A stretch of 64,000 nucleotides of DNA from Halobellus inordinatus (GTDB taxonomy: Archaea; Halobacteriota; Halobacteria; Halobacteriales; Haloferacaceae): the NCBI RefSeq assembly GCF_024464655.1, contig NZ_JANHAV010000004.1, forward strand, positions 62,001 through 126,000. The letters are read 5' to 3'. Shown here piece after piece: positions 3,003 through 51,834 of this stretch. Position numbers and translations under genes: made by a program. A model generated the notes under the pieces. That model saw only the letters and a list, made by a program, of their open reading frames with translations. It was not told the DNA's origin and ran no database searches. Positions within the stretch are counted from its first letter, which is position 1. Each line of letters starts with the position of its first letter.

Positions 3003-3047
3003 CCTCTCCTCTCCTCTCCTCTCCTCTCCTCTCCTCTCCTCTCCTCT
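3003..3047. repeat. Pentanucleotide microsatellite, nine CCTCT units
   Basis: Nine perfect tandem copies of CCTCT start directly after the folCP stop codon and are followed by ccc. The run is non-coding in its present context. Pyrimidine-rich tracts can act in archaeal transcription termination, but that role is only inferred here. Confidence 0.9.
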
Positions 3048-3094
3048 CCCGTGTCCCAGCGACGGCGGAGACCGATACACTTTCACCACGCGCT

Positions 3095-8040: not shown

Positions 8041-10223
8041 CAGTCGGCCTGTCCGGCCGCCCCCGAGGCGGCGGTCGTCTCGACGCCCGGCCCGTTCTCG
8101 ATGGCTTCGACCAGTAGCTCTGCGACGTCGACGATCTCGATGTCGTCCTCGTAGCCGCCGGTCTTGCGCCCGTCCTCGTACATCGTCATACACATCGGAC
8201 ACGCGACGACGAACTTCTCGACGTCGCTGCCGGCGTCGGTGTCTTCGAGGGCTTCGCGCATCCGCTCTTCGCTCGGTTTGGACTCTTCGTCGATGTCCAT
8301 CCAGAGGCCGCCGCCACCGCCCCCACAACAGAAGGAGTTGCTGCGGTTGCGGGGCATCTCCGCGAGGGTCGCGCCCGTCGCTCGGATCAGTTCGCGCGGC
8401 GCCTCGTACTCGTCGTTGTAGCGGCCGAGGTGGCACGGATCGTGGTAGGTGACCGTGTAATCGAGTTCGTTGCCACGGAGACCGAGTTCGCCCGCTTCGA
8501 CCAACTCTTCGACGGCTTGCGTCCAGTGCAACACGTCGACGTCGCCGTCCGCGTTCCACTCACCGTCGAACTCGAAGCTCATTATGGGATCGTCGGCGAA
8601 GTTCTCGTACTCCACCTCCGGGTACTCGTTCTTGAACGTGTTGTAGGAGTGCGGGTCCGTACAGATGATCTTCTCGGGGTCGACTTCGTCGAACGTCTCG
8701 ACGTGGTGGCCCGCAAGATCGACGTAGAGGAACTCCTCGCCGAGTCGGCGGATGTCGTTGCCGTCGTACTTCTCGTCCTCGAAGAGGATCCCGTACTCGA
8801 CGTCGGCGTGTTCGAGGATCTTCGCGAGCGAGCGAGCGACTTTCTTGTTCCGTTCGTCGTAGCTCGGGTAGTCGCCGACGTACCAGAGGTACTCGACGTC
8901 CTCTTCGCGGGCGTCCGTGAGGTCGAACTCCAGGTCGTCGGCCCACGCGGCGCGCTCGTCCGGCGGATCGCCGAAGGTGTTGCCCATCCCCATGATGTTG
9001 TCGAAGGTGTCCTGGACGTTCGAGTCGACGTCGCCCTGGTCGGTGAGCTGTCGGTTCATCCGCGTGAACGACTTGAGGTGCTCGATGTCGACCGGGCAGG
9101 CGTCCATACAAGCCATACAGGACATACACGACTCCATCGTCTCGGAGGCGACGACGCTCTCGCCGCCGTCGGCGATGATGTCGACGGGCTCTGTCTCCCC
9201 GGCGTCGAGCTCCTCCCGATAGCTCTTGAGGTCCAGGATGACGTCCCGCGGATCGAGCGGGCGCCCGGACGCCTTGGCCGGACAGACGGACGAACAGCGG
9301 CCACACTTCGTACAGGCGTCTTGGTCGAGCAGTTCCTTCCAGGAGAAGTCGTTGATCTCCTCGGCTCCGGTGTCGGCGTCGAGATCGGCCGGGACACCGG
9401 GCAGACGCTTGCCGGCCTTCTCGTCGCGCGCGACGATGTTTGCGTACGACGAGAGCATATGGAACGGCTTGCCGTACGGAATGGCGGCGACGAACGCGAG
9501 CGCGAGCAGGGCGTGCGACCACCAGATCGCCGGGTAGATGGCCTGCGCCATCGACTCGCTAACGCCCGCGATCACCAGCACGTCCGCGACGAACCATCCG
9601 ACGAAGCTCACGGTCTCGAAGGCGGGAAAGCCCGTCCCGAGGATCCGCACGCCCTCTGCGACGTAGCCACCGACGCCGAGCAGGAACAGCGCCCAGATGA
9701 AGAAGTCGTCTTCCAGACTGGTGTGTTTCCCCCAGAGACGCGCCTTCCGAACGGCGTAGCGCCGGTACAGCGCGACGCCGACGCCGACGACGAACAGCAG
9801 CCCCATCGCGTCCATCACCAGCGAGTACGCGAGATAGAAGTCGCCGACGAAGAAGGACTGCTCGGTGCCGAGCATCCCCGTGACGTTCCGGTAGATGTCC
9901 ATATCGATGGCGAGGATCGTGGTCCCGATGAGCAGCGTGAGAAAGCCCCACATAATGAACGCGTGCATCAGGCCGCCCCTCGTGTCCCGGTCGAAGAGCT
10001 TCCGGTTCGAGAGGACGATCCGCGCGGCGGTAACTATGCGACTCGGCAGCGCGTCGAGTCTGTCGAACCAGTCCTCTTGCCCGGACGTGTAGCGCACGAA
10101 GTTCTGGTAGACACCGTACGCGAACACTATGATCGTCACCGCGGCGAGCAGGTAGAACACTATCTCGCCGAGGTGACTGATACCCCAGAGCGTGGGCCTG
10201 GTTACAGTTCCTTCGGCAACCAT
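8040..10223 (-). CDS. Membrane-bound HdrD/EtfD-like Fe-S oxidoreductase
   Basis: From ATG at 10223 the protein has 727 residues; a longer frame to 10385 adds a non-membrane leader without support. Residues 1-270 hold about six membrane helices resembling a NarI/HdrE-type quinone or haem b domain. Residues about 300-375 carry two [4Fe-4S] motifs, CTKCGRCSSVCP and CMSCMACMDACP. The C-terminal half has CCG-type cysteine domains, including CHLGRYN and FCCGGGGGG. Such proteins (EtfD) pass electrons from electron-transfer flavoprotein to membrane quinone. The adjacent dehydrogenase-etfB-etfA operon supports that role. It could also act with another donor. Confidence 0.85.
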   Translation of the reverse strand: MVAEGTVTRPTLWGISHLGEIVFYLLAAVTIIVFAYGVYQNFVRYTSGQEDWFDRLDALPSRIVTAARIVLSNRKLFDRDTRGGLMHAFIMWGFLTLLIGTTILAIDMDIYRNVTGMLGTEQSFFVGDFYLAYSLVMDAMGLLFVVGVGVALYRRYAVRKARLWGKHTSLEDDFFIWALFLLGVGGYVAEGVRILGTGFPAFETVSFVGWFVADVLVIAGVSESMAQAIYPAIWWSHALLALAFVAAIPYGKPFHMLSSYANIVARDEKAGKRLPGVPADLDADTGAEEINDFSWKELLDQDACTKCGRCSSVCPAKASGRPLDPRDVILDLKSYREELDAGETEPVDIIADGGESVVASETMESCMSCMACMDACPVDIEHLKSFTRMNRQLTDQGDVDSNVQDTFDNIMGMGNTFGDPPDERAAWADDLEFDLTDAREEDVEYLWYVGDYPSYDERNKKVARSLAKILEHADVEYGILFEDEKYDGNDIRRLGEEFLYVDLAGHHVETFDEVDPEKIICTDPHSYNTFKNEYPEVEYENFADDPIMSFEFDGEWNADGDVDVLHWTQAVEELVEAGELGLRGNELDYTVTYHDPCHLGRYNDEYEAPRELIRATGATLAEMPRNRSNSFCCGGGGGGLWMDIDEESKPSEERMREALEDTDAGSDVEKFVVACPMCMTMYEDGRKTGGYEDDIEIVDVAELLVEAIENGPGVETTAASGAAGQAD

Positions 10224-27193: not shown

Positions 27194-27663
27194 ACACACC
27201 TCTATCGATGTGTTTTGAGTCAGTTCACTGCTATCCAAGAAGGCCAGCCCATCGAGAGCACAGACACCCCTCTATCGATGTGTTCCATAGGATAGCGTGA
27301 GGCGTCTGATTGGAAGAACACCGATGACGATGTGGTCGAATGGAAGTAAACCCCGGTTCACCCGCTCAGTTTACCGTTTAGTGGAATTTCCCGATTACCG
27401 AGCAAGCGATAGGTAAAAACTCGATAGGAGAAGACTAAGCCAACACATCGAACACATCGATAGAGGTGTGTGTGAGTGTGTTCTAGAAAACTAGAAGAGA
27501 ACAAATAGAAATTAGCTCTTTCTATGAGATACGATTCAGGGATCTAATCAGGTTCAGGCGCGAAATCAGGGAAAGAGATCGCCATTCTGATGATTGACCA
27601 CAGAGCTTCTCTCGAGTAACCCCCCTCCCTACCGAAACGACGAACACATCGATAGAGGGGTGT
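27194..27663. repeat. Origin 1: four upstream ORB-like repeats
   Basis: Copies of ACACCCCTCTATCGATGTGT lie at 27194-27213 and 27264-27283 (forward) and at 27452-27471 and 27644-27663 (reverse). The forward and reverse pairs face each other. The stretch at about 27478-27550 between the two reverse copies is A/T-rich and may be the unwinding site. Pairing with the downstream Orc1/Cdc6 gene makes this a probable replication origin. Confidence 0.75.
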
Positions 27664-27817
27664 GTCTCTGGATCGACCGAATTACATAACACTTCGTCGG
27701 GCGTCTGGGGATTCGATCGGCAGCTCACGGTGGAATTTTAGAATTTGAGCAGATGGACAATCTGACGCGTATGATCACACTTCGATAAGGGTGAGAATCT
27801 TTTTGTAACTTGGCTGT

Positions 27818-29296
27818 ATGGCCTCCCATATGGGAACTGACGACTCCGAGCATTCTCGGGATGATTCGAGAATACCGGAGGATGAGACTACCACGAACAC
27901 CGATATCGGTTCTGAACTTACTGAACCGGAACTCTCGACGGATCAACTGGATTCCACGCTCCCCGAGGATACCTCGGCTTCCACGTCGTCTTCTGAGGAG
28001 TCGACGCAGTCGATTGAGGATATGCTGCTGGAATTCGACGACCAGGAGGGGCTCATTCGTGACCGATCGCTTCTGGATCCGAACTACGTCGTTGAAGAGG
28101 ACCGTATCGTCGGTCGGGACGACCAACTGCAGGAAGTAACCAAAATGCTTCGTGTCGCCCTCGGTGATAACCGACCGCCGAATCTCTTCCTGTACGGTCC
28201 CTCGGGAACGGGCAAATCACTCATTACGAAGGCCGTCTGTAACAACATCAGCCGCATCTGTGACTCGCGCGACATCCGGTTCGGGACCATCGAAGTCAAC
28301 TGCCAGGATCTCGATACCCTCGGAGTTGCAGTGTATGAACTCGTCCAGCAGGCTGCAGACGAGGCCCAGGTCGATATCCAGGTCCCGAAACACGGCGTCG
28401 CAACCAAAGAAAAGTGGGATGAACTCTACCGAATCGTCAACGAGAATTTCGATTCGGTGGTGTTCGTACTCGACGAACTAGATATGCTCGTGGGACGCCG
28501 AGACAAACAAGAACCGGCGTTTTCGCGACTCCTGTATCAACTCTCCCGCGCGGGCGCGAACAACGAATTGAGTGCCCACGTCTCCGTCGTTGCTATCTCG
28601 AACGACACGAAAATGATGGATGCCGTTGGCAGCCGCGCCGTCAGTTCGTTTACGCCAGAGGACGTCCATTTCGACGACTACGATGCGAATCAGCTGCAGT
28701 CGATTCTTCGTCGGCGAGAGGACGCATTCTACGAAGACGTCGTAGATGCTGACGTAATTCCGCTCGCAGCAGCCTTTGCCGCTCAGACACACGGTGATGC
28801 ACGGAAAGCAATCGATTTGATCCGCGTTGCTGGCGAACTCGCCGAACGAGAGGGTGACGCACGCGTTCGTGAAGAGCACGTACGATCCGCACAGGCAAAA
28901 GTGGAAAAGAACCGCGTTCTCGAAGTCGTTCGCGGCATCAGCACTCAAAAGAAGTTATGCCTCTATGCGACAGCAGCTGTCGCCGCACAATCTGATAATA
29001 GTTCAGCTCGGAGTACGACTGGGTATCGAGTTTATCAGTTTCTCACGGAGGCAATCGATGCCGATCAGTATCACCAAGAAACCTATGTGAACAAAATGAA
29101 AGAACTGACCACGTATTCTCTCGTGGACTTCGAGCGGCGAAGCCACGGCCCTAGTTCCGGGATGTTTCTGGAGTTTCAGTTCGCTGAGCAACCAGACACG
29201 ATTCTGGAAACGCTTCGCGAGGACTCTCGACTTGAGATGGTCTCTGAAGACGAGGTCAACTCTGTCGTCAACGCACAGATTAGAAACCAGACGTAG
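27818..29296 (+). CDS. Orc1/Cdc6 replication initiator, copy 1
   Basis: A 492-residue AAA+ protein. The first 85 residues are acidic and low in complexity. Walker A is GPSGTGKSLITK near residue 127, Walker B VVFVLDELDML near 214, and a sensor-1 type SNDTK lies near 266. The C-terminal 120 residues form the winged-helix domain that binds origin boxes. It is flanked by four repeats of one type on each side, which fits an initiator with its own origin. It is only distantly similar to copy 2 and longer at the N-terminus. Confidence 0.92.
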   Translation: MASHMGTDDSEHSRDDSRIPEDETTTNTDIGSELTEPELSTDQLDSTLPEDTSASTSSSEESTQSIEDMLLEFDDQEGLIRDRSLLDPNYVVEEDRIVGRDDQLQEVTKMLRVALGDNRPPNLFLYGPSGTGKSLITKAVCNNISRICDSRDIRFGTIEVNCQDLDTLGVAVYELVQQAADEAQVDIQVPKHGVATKEKWDELYRIVNENFDSVVFVLDELDMLVGRRDKQEPAFSRLLYQLSRAGANNELSAHVSVVAISNDTKMMDAVGSRAVSSFTPEDVHFDDYDANQLQSILRRREDAFYEDVVDADVIPLAAAFAAQTHGDARKAIDLIRVAGELAEREGDARVREEHVRSAQAKVEKNRVLEVVRGISTQKKLCLYATAAVAAQSDNSSARSTTGYRVYQFLTEAIDADQYHQETYVNKMKELTTYSLVDFERRSHGPSSGMFLEFQFAEQPDTILETLREDSRLEMVSEDEVNSVVNAQIRNQT

Positions 29297-29334
29297 CCGA
29301 ACAGAGCAATTGTACGGAAGACATCCCACACCGG

Positions 29335-29626
29335 ACACCCCTCTATCGATGTGTACAGCCTGTCTGGTAGCAAATCCCAATTGATAGTCGGTTTATTTCA
29401 CTCAGCGAATGTGTCTTGTCCGAGCTATGTTCCTGACACCCCTCTATCGATATGTATGCCGTGCTTAGACCGTCTGAAATGCAGTATTTTGAGGGGCGAC
29501 TTGGTGATGGTAGGGCTTCTCAATCTCGTGTTGTAACAGTATCAGCAGATGCTTCCGTTTCGAGTACACCCCTCTATCGATGTGTTCGAGAGAATATTGT
29601 CCGCATACACCCCTCTATCGAAGTGT
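29335..29626 (+). repeat. Origin 1: four downstream ORB-like repeats
   Basis: Forward copies lie at 29335-29354, 29436-29455 (one change), 29566-29585 and 29607-29626 (one change). All match ACACCCCTCTATCGATGTGT and are in the same direction as the initiator gene. No gene is visible between 29297 and 29650. Confidence 0.75.
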
Positions 29627-29848
29627 ACATCTTAGATCTGGAGCTCCTATTGTCGAGAGGAACTCCGTCGAACTCTATCAGGACCTCGTCCGCCAGCAGT
29701 CCACATCGATTTCTCCGAGCTGCTGACCGGCAAGACACTCAAGGTGCTGTACTACCTCGACCGGCCGCGAACCGTCTCTGAGATCGCCAACCCGAGCGAC
29801 AACTACCGCAACACGGTTAACCGCGTCCTCAAGCGATTTCGTGACCGT

Positions 29849-42012: not shown

Positions 42013-42632
42013 ACACCACCTTGCAAGTGTTCTGCAGTTGTGGAGGATCGGGGTACTCGGGACTCAAACCGTGTTGGTTCGCTCGATTCCAAAAGAACAC
42101 TTGCAGAGAGGTGTTCCACAGCTCCTAGAGGCAGTACCAATCCCAACTCTCTGAACTCCGCTGAGGCTATCACAATCAGTTACAGGCCTCGAAAAGCCGA
42201 TTGATCAAATATTTCGAGATCGTTCACACGGGATCCCTAGTACCTACACACACACACCACCCTGCAAGTGTTCTGAGCGTCGGCAATGAGATACCAGATC
42301 ATATAGACAGAGACCAGTAGCATATAAATAAAATGGTTATCAGTTGTCTATATTCATATCGCACTGGTATAGACGCTTCTACGTTTTCTTTCTCTAGCTA
42401 TCATTCCATTATTTACTTTTTCAAAAAGATTTATATTATATTATAACGTGATATTCTAGTCAGTTGTAGCAGCAGTAGGCAGTAACTCTAGCTAGCGGAA
42501 AGGCCACTCCACGTTGAGAATGACGAGGAACTGCCCCCTCACACGCGAACTCTAAGAACACTTGCAGGGTGGTGTGTGTAGGTCCGAAAAACCGAGAGAC
42601 GCAAAACACTTGAAACACTTGCAGCCTGGTGC
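42013..42632. repeat. Origin 2: five upstream ORB-like repeats and A/T-rich stretch
   Basis: Matches to GAACACTTGCAGGGTGGTGT lie at 42013-42032 (reverse), 42095-42114, 42254-42273 (reverse), 42556-42575 and 42613-42632 (weaker). A strongly A/T-rich zone at about 42300-42460 (for example ttatattatattataac) between the third and fourth copies is a good candidate for duplex unwinding. Together with the initiator gene 39 bases further on this forms a probable origin. Confidence 0.78.
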
Positions 42633-42670
42633 TGGGTTTTATAACGACAGACGCTAAAACTGGGAGTAAG

Positions 42671-43999
42671 ATGGTACAGACAGACGAGAATCCGTTCGAT
42701 GGGCGGGACGAGATTTTCGCGGCCAAGCAACCGCTCAAGAAAGACAGCTTCGACCCCGAGACGATCTTCCACCGAGATGAAGAAATCGACCTCTATGTGA
42801 ACGCCCTCCAGGACGTCGTGGTCGGCCACGAACCGAACAACGTCTTCGTGTATGGGCCAACGGGAGTCGGCAAGACAGCGGTGACCAAGTGGGTCCGGGA
42901 TATGTTACTCGAGAAAGCAGACGAGCAGAACGTCGACCTTGACATCCTCGGCCCTGTCAACTGCCGGAACTACAAATCGTCCTACCGGCTCGTCAGCCGA
43001 CTCGTAAACGAGTTCCGGACTCCCGACAATCAACTCCCGAAGAGTGGATATAGCACGGACACTGTCTTCGAGTTCCTGTACGAAGAAATCGAAGACGTAG
43101 GCGGGAACGTCCTCATCATCCTCGACGAGATCGACAACATACCGCCGGACGCCCGCAACGACTTCCTCTACGACCTCCCACGTGCAGAGGCGAGTGAGAA
43201 CGCCGCGATCGACGAGGCGTGTATCGGCCTCATCGGTATCTCGAACGACCTGAAGTTCGTCGACTCGCTGGAGCCCAAGGTCAAAAGCACGCTCGGTGAG
43301 CGGGAGATCAAGTTCGGACCGTACGATGCCAACGAACTCCGTGACATTCTCGGGTATTATGCCGACCTCTCTTTCCGCGATGGCGTCTTGAGCGACGACG
43401 TGATCCCACTCGCTGCGGCATTCACCGCCCAAGAGCGGGGTGACGTTCGCCAGGGGCTCAAGATCCTCGAAAAAGCCGGCGAATACGCGCGGATGGACGG
43501 AAAATCGTCGGTCACTGAGGACCACACTCGCCGGGCTACCGAAACGATCGAGACGGACGAGATTCTCGACTCGTTCGACAACGACCTCACTCGACAGCAG
43601 GCACTCGCATACATTGCGACGACGCTCGCGATCATCGAACCCGAACACGAGGCTCGCACGAAGCGGATTTACACGCTGTACTCGTCGATTGCCGAGGCTG
43701 TGGGTAGCGACCCGCGCTCCGAGCGGAAACTCTACGAATACCTCGATCAGCTTTCGATGCAGGGATTCGTCAGGTCTGAAGATCACAATCAGGGACGCCG
43801 TGGCGGTCGGCGATTCATCTACGAGGTAACCGACGACCCTGTCGACATCATCAACGCTGTCGTAAAATCCGACTATCAGGAAGCGCTTCCGAACAACGTG
43901 TGGAATATCTTGGAACACTACAAAGAAGACGAGGCAACATCTTTCGAGGCCCCTAATCCCGACGACGAGACCCAACAGCAGATCTGGCACTTCACCTAA
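42671..43999 (+). CDS. Orc1/Cdc6 replication initiator, copy 2
   Basis: The ATG at 42671 (MVQTDENPFDGRDEIFAAKQ) gives 442 residues; the longer frame from 42629 runs into the last repeat. Walker A is GPTGVGKTAVTKW near residue 62, Walker B VLIILDEIDNIP near 150, sensor 1 is in GISNDLKF near 190, and the C-terminal 130 residues form a winged helix. The repeats around it differ from those around copy 1, which indicates different DNA specificity. Confidence 0.92.
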   Translation: MVQTDENPFDGRDEIFAAKQPLKKDSFDPETIFHRDEEIDLYVNALQDVVVGHEPNNVFVYGPTGVGKTAVTKWVRDMLLEKADEQNVDLDILGPVNCRNYKSSYRLVSRLVNEFRTPDNQLPKSGYSTDTVFEFLYEEIEDVGGNVLIILDEIDNIPPDARNDFLYDLPRAEASENAAIDEACIGLIGISNDLKFVDSLEPKVKSTLGEREIKFGPYDANELRDILGYYADLSFRDGVLSDDVIPLAAAFTAQERGDVRQGLKILEKAGEYARMDGKSSVTEDHTRRATETIETDEILDSFDNDLTRQQALAYIATTLAIIEPEHEARTKRIYTLYSSIAEAVGSDPRSERKLYEYLDQLSMQGFVRSEDHNQGRRGGRRFIYEVTDDPVDIINAVVKSDYQEALPNNVWNILEHYKEDEATSFEAPNPDDETQQQIWHFT

Positions 44000-44114: not shown

Positions 44115-44461
44115 GAACACTTGCAGGGTGATGTGTCTGCGCCTCGTCGACAGACCGTTTAGAACACTTGCAGAGTGGTGTGTCTGTGCCTCGTCGACGA
44201 ATCGTCTGGAACACTTGGAGGGTGGTGTGTCTGTGTTTCGTCGATGGGCCGTTAGAACACTTGCAGGGTGGTGTGTCTGCACCTCGTCGACAGACCGTTT
44301 AGAACACTTGGAGGGTGGTGTGTCTGCGCCTCGTCGACAGACCGTTTAGAACACTTGGAGGGTGGTGTGTCTGCGCCTCGTCGACAGACCGTTTGGAACA
44401 CTTGCAGAGTGGTGTGTCTGTGTTTCGTCGATGGGCCGTTAGAACACTTGCAGGGTGGTGT
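44115..44461 (+). repeat. Eight direct ORB-like repeats with 46-47-bp period
   Basis: Copies start at 44115, 44162, 44209, 44255, 44302, 44349, 44396 and 44442. Each 20-bp box matches GAACACTTGCAGGGTGGTGT with up to two changes. The 26-27 bases between boxes are also partly conserved (gtctgcgcctcgtcgacaga), so the unit is about 47 bp. All are in one direction, downstream of Orc1/Cdc6 copy 2. Such an iteron array may bind the initiator for copy control or origin activity. Confidence 0.88.
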
Positions 44462-44556
44462 GTCTGTGGACGGGCCTCGTGATGCGAGCACCCTGTCGAC
44501 GTTCCCAAACCAACTGCTGTCCGAACCCGATGACGAGGCGAGGCGATCGGGAGCAG

Positions 44557-45738
44557 TCAGTGGTCGAACTGGACGGCAGCCTGGTTCAGTCGCGCTGCGG
44601 CGCGCGTGGCGGCAGCCCTGAGCCGCTCGCGGGCTTCGCCCCCGTTCTCGCGCAGCGCCATCGGGGGCAGGGACCCAGTCTGTTCGCGCTCCCCACGCGT
44701 GCGAGGTAACTGGAGCCGCCCGATCAGCGGCAGGTCGATGCCAGGTGCGGTGACTGTCTCGCTCTCGTCCCCGTCGGGTGCGAGGGTCCCGACAGCGGGG
44801 TCAAGAGGTATGCGGCCGAGGACTGGCACCCCGTACTCTTCGGCGAGGAAGTCACCGCCACCGGTCCCGAAGATGTCGTGGACCTCGTCGCAATCGGGGC
44901 ATTCGAAGCCGGCCATATTCTCGATAACTCCGAGCACGGGGACGTCGTAGCGGGCGAATCCGACGAGGCCGCGACCGGCGTCGTCGACTGCAACCTCCTG
45001 GGGCGTCGTTACGATGATCGCACCCGCCACGGGCAAGTGCTGGACGAGCGACAGTTGCACGTCGCCGGTTCCCGGTGGCATATCGACGATGAGGTAGTCC
45101 AGTTCGCCCCAGTGGACGTCGCCGAACAGTTGCTTGATGAACTCGTCGACCAGCGGTCCCCGCCAGATGACCGGATCGTCCTCGTCGGCGAGGAATCCCA
45201 TACTCATCACGCGGACGCCGTGGGCCTCTCGCGGGACCATCTCGTCAGCTGTCGTCGTGTCGGGCGTCCGCTCACTGAGGCCGAACAATGCTGGCGCGTT
45301 CGGGCCGTAGACGTCGGCGTCGATCAGGCCGACGGAGGCGCCGGCGTCAGCCAGCGCGATTGCGACGTTCGCCGCGACAGTGCTCTTGCCGACGCCGCCC
45401 TTGCCGGAGGCGACGGCGACGACGTTCTTCACGTCCGGCACCATTTCGATGTGCTCGCCGGGGTCAACGGGTTCCCCCCGGAACCCGACCTCGACGGAGT
45501 CGACGTCTTCGACCCCGGCCGCTGCGTCGGCGATGCCGCTAGCGAGGTGCTCTCGGAGTCGTTCGCTCGGTACTGGGTGTGAGATCTCAACTGAGGCTAC
45601 GCCGTCTCGTACGACGATGTCACCGACGCCATCGATATCGACGAGGTCGGCGTGGAGCTCGGATTCGCCGACGCCCTCCGACGCAATGGCGTCGCGGACG
45701 GCTGCTGCACGGTCGGTCGGAGAGTCATCGGACGTCAT
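44557..45738 (-). CDS. apbC: Mrp/ApbC-type P-loop Fe-S carrier protein
   Basis: A 393-residue protein. Residues about 10-85 are a DUF59/MIP18-like domain. The P-loop ATPase starts at VASGKGGVGKSTVAANVAIA near residue 110, followed by DADVYGPNAPALFG and YLIVDMPPGTGD. The Fe-S-binding CPDC motif sits near residue 285 (FECPDCDEVHDIFG). The family transfers Fe-S clusters to apo-proteins. It is the last gene of a minus-strand set with the molybdopterin and ferredoxin-NrfD genes (63-base gap), so it may serve their many clusters. Confidence 0.92.
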   Translation of the reverse strand: MTSDDSPTDRAAAVRDAIASEGVGESELHADLVDIDGVGDIVVRDGVASVEISHPVPSERLREHLASGIADAAAGVEDVDSVEVGFRGEPVDPGEHIEMVPDVKNVVAVASGKGGVGKSTVAANVAIALADAGASVGLIDADVYGPNAPALFGLSERTPDTTTADEMVPREAHGVRVMSMGFLADEDDPVIWRGPLVDEFIKQLFGDVHWGELDYLIVDMPPGTGDVQLSLVQHLPVAGAIIVTTPQEVAVDDAGRGLVGFARYDVPVLGVIENMAGFECPDCDEVHDIFGTGGGDFLAEEYGVPVLGRIPLDPAVGTLAPDGDESETVTAPGIDLPLIGRLQLPRTRGEREQTGSLPPMALRENGGEARERLRAAATRAAARLNQAAVQFDH

Positions 45739-51273: not shown

Positions 51274-51433
51274 GAACACTTGCAGGGTGGTGTCGTTGAG
51301 ATCTGGTCCCATACCGCGTGAGATACCACGGTATGGTGGTTCCCACTGTCGAGAGCCACCCTCGCAGAACACTTGCAGAGTGGTGTTCTTGACATTCGTG
51401 GGCAAGTCGTATGGAACACTTGCAGGGTGGTGT
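51274..51433 (+). repeat. Three distal origin-2 type repeats
   Basis: Copies of GAACACTTGCAGGGTGGTGT lie at 51274-51293, 51367-51386 and 51414-51433. Starts are 93 and 47 bases apart, which is two and one units of the 46-47-bp period of the array at 44115. One unit between the first and second has decayed. They precede a small membrane-protein gene by about 50 bases. Confidence 0.85.
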
Positions 51434-51480: not shown

Positions 51481-51834
51481 ATGGCCGTACCCTTCGTCGG
51501 TTCTATCGTCGCGTTTGTCATTGCCTTGCTCATCGGCGGGCTGGCAATTTACGTCAGCGCTCGGGTCGTAGTCGACGTCGACGACTACGGACACGCAGTC
51601 ATCACAGCGGTGCTCGGTGCGATCGGCTGGGCGCTCACTGCCTGGATCCCACTCATCGGTCCGCTCATCGCGTTGGTCGTGTGGGTCGGAGTCGTCAACT
51701 GGCGGTACCCGGGCGGTTGGGTCAAAGCCGCTCAGATCGGCGTCGTGGCTTGGCTTGCGGCTCTGATCATCCTCCTGCTCGTGAACTCGGTTCTCCGACT
51801 CGGCGTCGGGGCGTTCGGGATCCCCGGGGCATAG
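51481..51834 (+). CDS. Haloarchaeal membrane protein, 117 residues
   Basis: Four hydrophobic segments (residues about 5-28, 38-55, 58-72 and 86-105) separated by short loops; the loop VVDVDDYGH is acidic. The pattern is common among haloarchaeal membrane proteins of unknown function. It follows the distal repeat cluster; whether these repeats influence it is unknown. Confidence 0.65.
   Translation: MAVPFVGSIVAFVIALLIGGLAIYVSARVVVDVDDYGHAVITAVLGAIGWALTAWIPLIGPLIALVVWVGVVNWRYPGGWVKAAQIGVVAWLAALIILLLVNSVLRLGVGAFGIPGA

Follow-up and report, generated by a model that had tools for sequence, protein, structure and literature searches.

Clustered sites outside a minimal origin can bind initiator and are known thereby to restrain initiation. 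Examples are datA/DnaA-box titration in bacteria and iteron control in plasmids, with iterons typically of about 20 bp. In archaea, the closest described arrangement is the oriC2-cdc6E-oriC2D locus of Haloarcula hispanica. According to Wu et al. in NAR (PMC3936714), the 722-bp intergenic region downstream of cdc6E contains 11 ORB elements and is named oriC2D. This region was without ARS activity in H. hispanica, lowered the plasmid level and restrained oriC2 activity, the more strongly the more boxes it contained, and it could be deleted only when oriC2 was absent. The plasmid level was intermediate for a construct carrying two downstream boxes, and the authors proposed titration of Cdc6E as the mechanism of oriC2D. 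The same paper reports three downstream boxes for Halorubrum lacusprofundi. A classification of haloarchaeal origins from 2012 placed Orc/Cdc6 proteins in one family when they were at least 80% identical (PMC3528665).

These published landmarks were recovered in the genomes we compared. Genome G160 is H. hispanica, as its 405,816-bp contig is 100% identical to pHH400 (NC_015944.1) over the 2 kb compared, and the gap between its orthologue of the initiator studied here (L107:9059-10387) and the next gene, which ends at 8336, measures exactly 722 bp and contains exactly 11 boxes. In genome G188, identified as H. lacusprofundi through pHLAC01, we found three downstream boxes, in agreement with PMC3936714.

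Boxes around an orc1/cdc6 gene of Halobellus inordinatus

We analysed a stretch of 64,000 nucleotides from Halobellus inordinatus, referred to here as the window. It contains the following features:

42013..42114, minus strand at 42013 and plus strand at 42095: two outer upstream boxes
42254..42273, minus strand: perfect inverted box to the left of the AT-rich tract, assigned to the origin proper
42310..42470, no strand: AT-rich tract between the inverted boxes (70% AT), predicted duplex-unwinding element
42556..42575, plus strand: perfect direct box to the right of the AT-rich tract, assigned to the origin proper
42605..42632, plus strand: half-box plus box composite AACACTTGAAACACTTGCAGCCTGGT, candidate autoregulatory site of orc1/cdc6
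42671..43999, plus strand: orc1/cdc6 initiator gene, 442 aa, orthologue of H. hispanica Cdc6E (74% identity), assigned by Pfam and paralogue comparison
44115..44461, plus strand: eight direct initiator boxes GAACACTTGCAGGGTGGTGT with a 46-47-bp period, an oriC2D-like downstream cluster and probable titration site
51274..51433, plus strand: three distal direct boxes at 51274, 51367 and 51414, with spacings of 93 and 47

A search with the degenerate core of the box, allowing up to three mismatches, found 16 boxes in the window, compared with 0.42 expected from dinucleotide shuffles and a shuffle maximum of 2. Five lie upstream of orc1/cdc6, eight form the array and three lie 7 kb further downstream. 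The remainder of the 3.4-Mb assembly contained a single near match, and within the assembly the initiator box is nearly confined to the orc1/cdc6 locus. The eight array starts and seven spacings (47, 47, 46, 47, 47, 47 and 46) given in the initial annotation of this DNA were all exact on recheck; the boxes at 42013 (minus), 42095 (plus), 42254 (minus), 42556 (plus), 42613 (plus), 51274, 51367 and 51414 were missing from its list.

The initiator carries AAA, Cdc6_lid and C-terminal winged-helix (Cdc6_C) domains. Upstream of its gene, the boxes at 42254 (minus) and 42556 (plus) are separated by 282 bp of 61% AT, and the best 60 bp of the AT-rich tract between them reach 82% AT in a window of 40% AT, in which only 0.05% of all 60-mers reach even 78%. 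The usual archaeal origin has an inverted pair of boxes with an AT-rich tract in between, so we place the origin proper upstream of orc1/cdc6. With a putative unwinding element, inverted boxes on either side of it and the initiator gene alongside, the region 42254-42575 is, by its predicted architecture, a canonical archaeal origin. Over the whole 301-kb contig, GC skew showed no clear inflection at the orc1/cdc6 locus; the contig carries one tRNA-Leu and may come from a megaplasmid or from a chromosome.

Between the origin and the gene, the composite is followed directly by a promoter (TATA) element, TTTTATAA, at 42637-42644. The composite pattern, AACACTTGAAACACTTGCAGGGTGGT, matches at 21-26 of its 26 positions in 13 of 13 loci, and its distance from the orc1/cdc6 start is nearly fixed across them, which suggests that the initiator may also control its own promoter. 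The sections of PMC3936714 considered here contain no description of autoregulation through such a site. The promoter-adjacent composite in all 13 loci and the distal box group are new details.

The array boxes begin beyond the orc1/cdc6 stop codon, covering 116 to 462 bp from it, ahead of a convergent Mrp-like gene. Tandem Repeats Finder reported a period of 47 at 44115-44466 with 86% matches and, more strongly, a four-unit period of 187 bp with 93% matches. The units, spacers included, are 77-98% identical to one another, which bears out the view that the partly conserved spacers reflect duplication of whole units; units 1, 4, 5 and 6 are of one type (A-like), 3 and 7 of another (B-like), and unit 2 is intermediate. 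Open reading frames across the array (44128-44349, 44252-44491 and 44268-44621) were rejected as genes, being repeat-derived frames, and an Rfam search for a known RNA element gave no match.

Orthology and conservation of the module

The window initiator is 74% identical to Cdc6E over 442 aa, compared with 40% for the next-best paralogue in the genome. Its own group is sister to the Haloarcula proteins; it is 86-91% identical to this group, whose compared members share 84-91% among themselves. Both its 74% identity to Cdc6E and its 73% identity to the H. lacusprofundi protein are under the 80% that PMC3528665 requires within a family. By that rule we regard the group as a sister family sharing the same box: GAACACTTGCAGGGTGGTGT occurs mismatch-free in both the H. 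inordinatus and the H. hispanica loci. Three features of the oriC2-cdc6E-oriC2D module are present, namely an orthologous initiator, the same box and a cluster directly downstream of the gene, and as in H. hispanica the boxes are inverted around the upstream AT-rich tract and direct in the downstream cluster. The two loci differ in cluster size (11 boxes in 722 bp in H. hispanica, eight in 347 bp in H. inordinatus) and in regularity, with a strict 46-47-bp tandem and near-identical spacers in H. inordinatus but irregular spacing of 22-98 bp in H. hispanica. H. inordinatus also has two extra upstream boxes and three more boxes 7 kb downstream, unlike H. hispanica. The oriC2 homologue of H. lacusprofundi, on a 525,943-bp replicon, has the same box and architecture as H. 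inordinatus; its three downstream boxes, however, are spaced at 28 bp, and its initiator is the 73% identical protein noted above.

Relatives of the initiator at 74-91% identity were found at eleven loci in named genomes, all with the same box and the same order of inverted box, AT-rich DNA, direct boxes, gene and then 2-12 direct boxes. The initial annotation held a cluster of this size to be out of the ordinary for archaea, a view that neither these counts nor the description of the arrangement in 2012-2013 support. The inverted upstream box is present in 11 of 12 other loci; the record of the twelfth (L108) begins inside the origin, and the inverted box lies at the record's other end (L109). 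Counterparts of the 42556 box in relatives precede the start codon, at -102 to -136. Downstream boxes have a single orientation in all loci, unlike the inverted origin pair. The closest relative, with a 91% identical initiator, has only two of them, and a large array is therefore not required. Alignment with the window covered the gene and roughly the 115 bp preceding it; the flanks gave nothing further except one 264-bp match in L128, which is unrelated. The unit of origin, gene and downstream cluster thus behaves as a cassette in different surroundings. Behind the gene, the number and spacing of the boxes evolve freely (2-12 boxes), while box, origin core and composite stay fixed.

Co-occurrence points to the same pairing of box and initiator. 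Among 195 genomes of the order, with orthologues defined at E<=1e-130, the box (up to one mismatch) was found in 15 of 15 genomes with an orthologue and in 3 of 180 others (Fisher p 8e-20, uncorrected for shared ancestry). One of these three, G084, retains a truncated orthologue: three boxes lie beside a C-terminal remnant of the initiator of about 106 aa, 48% identical (L112:8849-10718), a decaying copy of the module. On pHLAC01 of H. lacusprofundi (L110:5493-7189), a different orc gene (34% identical) is followed, at a distance of about 0.5 kb, by a single perfect box (7170), a hint of possible cross-talk between initiators.

The array as a probable titration site

Our analysis of H. inordinatus provides sequence, architecture, conservation, co-occurrence and orthology, and from these we infer binding, titration and an effect on the origin in this strain. 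The array most likely belongs to an origin/orc1-cdc6 module like oriC2-cdc6E of H. hispanica and serves there as the cluster, downstream of the gene, that titrates the initiator. The product of the gene at 42671-43999 would bind the 20-bp boxes of its own locus. Helicase loading would begin at the origin formed by the inverted boxes on either side of the AT-rich tract (42254-42575), and the eight downstream boxes, at which replication would not start, would compete for the same initiator. In H. inordinatus, this competition would lower free initiator at the origin and so restrain firing, and passage of the fork, by doubling the sink, would help prevent re-firing. On this reading, the kind of initiator-titration site tested genetically in H. 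hispanica would also accompany a sister group of initiators, and the eight clean tandem units would offer a handy ladder for relating box number to origin strength in an archaeon.

The initial annotation had recognized a large group of boxes of the initiator type behind their own orc1/cdc6 gene, a description that stands for the boxes, to which the initiator would bind. Its comparison with plasmid iterons is fair as an analogy for titration; the locus is nevertheless no Rep/iteron system. Plasmid iteron arrays resemble the H. inordinatus array in being tandem direct repeats, yet the period here is 46-47 bp against the roughly 20 bp typical of iterons, and the linked initiator is an AAA+ Orc1/Cdc6 rather than a plasmid Rep, whereas datA uses DnaA and iteron plasmids a Rep.

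The annotation had also called the array origin boxes, and a related reading makes it a positive part of the origin, in which initiator would gather and then be delivered, by handover or looping, to the AT-rich tract upstream, in the manner of the iterons of some plasmids. We find this improbable. The array boxes are indeed the same as the origin boxes, and some haloarchaeal origins have been predicted downstream of the orc gene (PMC3528665), but the array is 44% AT with no adjoining AT-rich tract, all its boxes point in one direction, and the origin proper lies on the other side of the gene. Moreover, PMC3936714 describes the equivalent H. hispanica region, oriC2D, as lacking ARS activity and as lowering the activity of oriC2.

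An expanded minisatellite without function, started by chance in a region with one or two boxes, is a very unlikely reading of the array. Recent duplications would account for its regularity, and two downstream boxes suffice in the closest relative; downstream clusters nevertheless recur in all loci compared, within flanks that cannot be aligned, and the H. hispanica equivalent was undeletable while oriC2 was present, according to PMC3936714. Within the array, box columns vary less than spacer columns (3 of 20 against 12 of 27; Fisher p 0.056), a weak sign of possible selection on the boxes. The array is in all likelihood functional.

Regularity of the array and the distal boxes

The exact 46-47-bp spacing most likely arose incidentally, when one unit was recently duplicated in tandem, since whole units, spacers included, were duplicated. 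Downstream spacings in ten other loci (n=45) are irregular, at 22-376 bp, and show no helical phasing (Rayleigh p about 0.35 at 10.5 bp), and no other of 392 genomes contained the exact two-box pattern at about 46-47-bp spacing when searched as a gapped pattern with mismatches disallowed. Because of these two results, the earlier argument that the spacing matters by placing successive boxes on opposite faces of the DNA lacks comparative support. The idea that the strict spacing itself has a function, by setting the geometry of a higher-order nucleoprotein complex or of handcuffing on alternating faces of the DNA, can draw on seven array spacings within 1 bp, on distal boxes that are also 47 apart (51367 and 51414, with 51274 93 away) and on single 44-47-bp spacings in several relatives, but duplication of units up to 98% identical yields the regularity, and together with the irregular, unphased spacings of the relatives and an exact tandem confined to one genome in the search this makes it highly improbable. 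What sets this strain of H. inordinatus apart is only the regular, tandem arrangement of its cluster.

The three distal boxes have the same orientation as the array, and the spacer after 51367 is identical to array spacers at 15 of 27 positions (p 0.004 before correction for several tests). The genes in between encode an Mrp-like protein, a large molybdopterin reductase and an Fe-S/membrane subunit, and the large reductase is rare, occurring in 2 of 60 genomes of relatives (E<=1e-200). The distal boxes may have been split off from an older array; insertion of the accessory block into a longer array, separating them from the rest, would be a simple, if unproven, account. We put forward tentatively, as less likely than titration itself, that the array is a fast-evolving gain control, in which duplication of units alters the number of sinks (two in the nearest relative, eight here) and array length would set origin strength or replicon copy number in related strains, with part of the older array carried 7 kb away by insertion of the molybdopterin-reductase block.

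A 117-aa membrane-protein gene at 51481 adjoins the distal boxes and is present in 40 of 60 relatives. Besides the H. inordinatus genome, at least three well-matching boxes occur in only three of those 60 relatives; regulation by distal boxes is therefore no general rule, and we rejected them as a fixed regulator of this gene. In Haloparvum, a distal pair of boxes 45 bp apart (L074:17791 and 17836) lies about 11 kb from the module.

The window also contains a second, different ori-orc module at 27194-29637, whose orc1/cdc6 gene (approximately 28025-29266) encodes a protein 28% identical to the 42671-43999 initiator. Its upstream boxes, ACACCCCTCTATCGATGTGT, lie at 27194 (plus), 27264 (plus), 27452 (minus) and 27644 (minus), and four direct copies follow downstream at 29335, 29436, 29566 and 29607, the downstream-cluster layout again, with an unrelated box. 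Elsewhere in the window, a perfect CCTCT repeat of 9.4 copies occupies 3003-3049.
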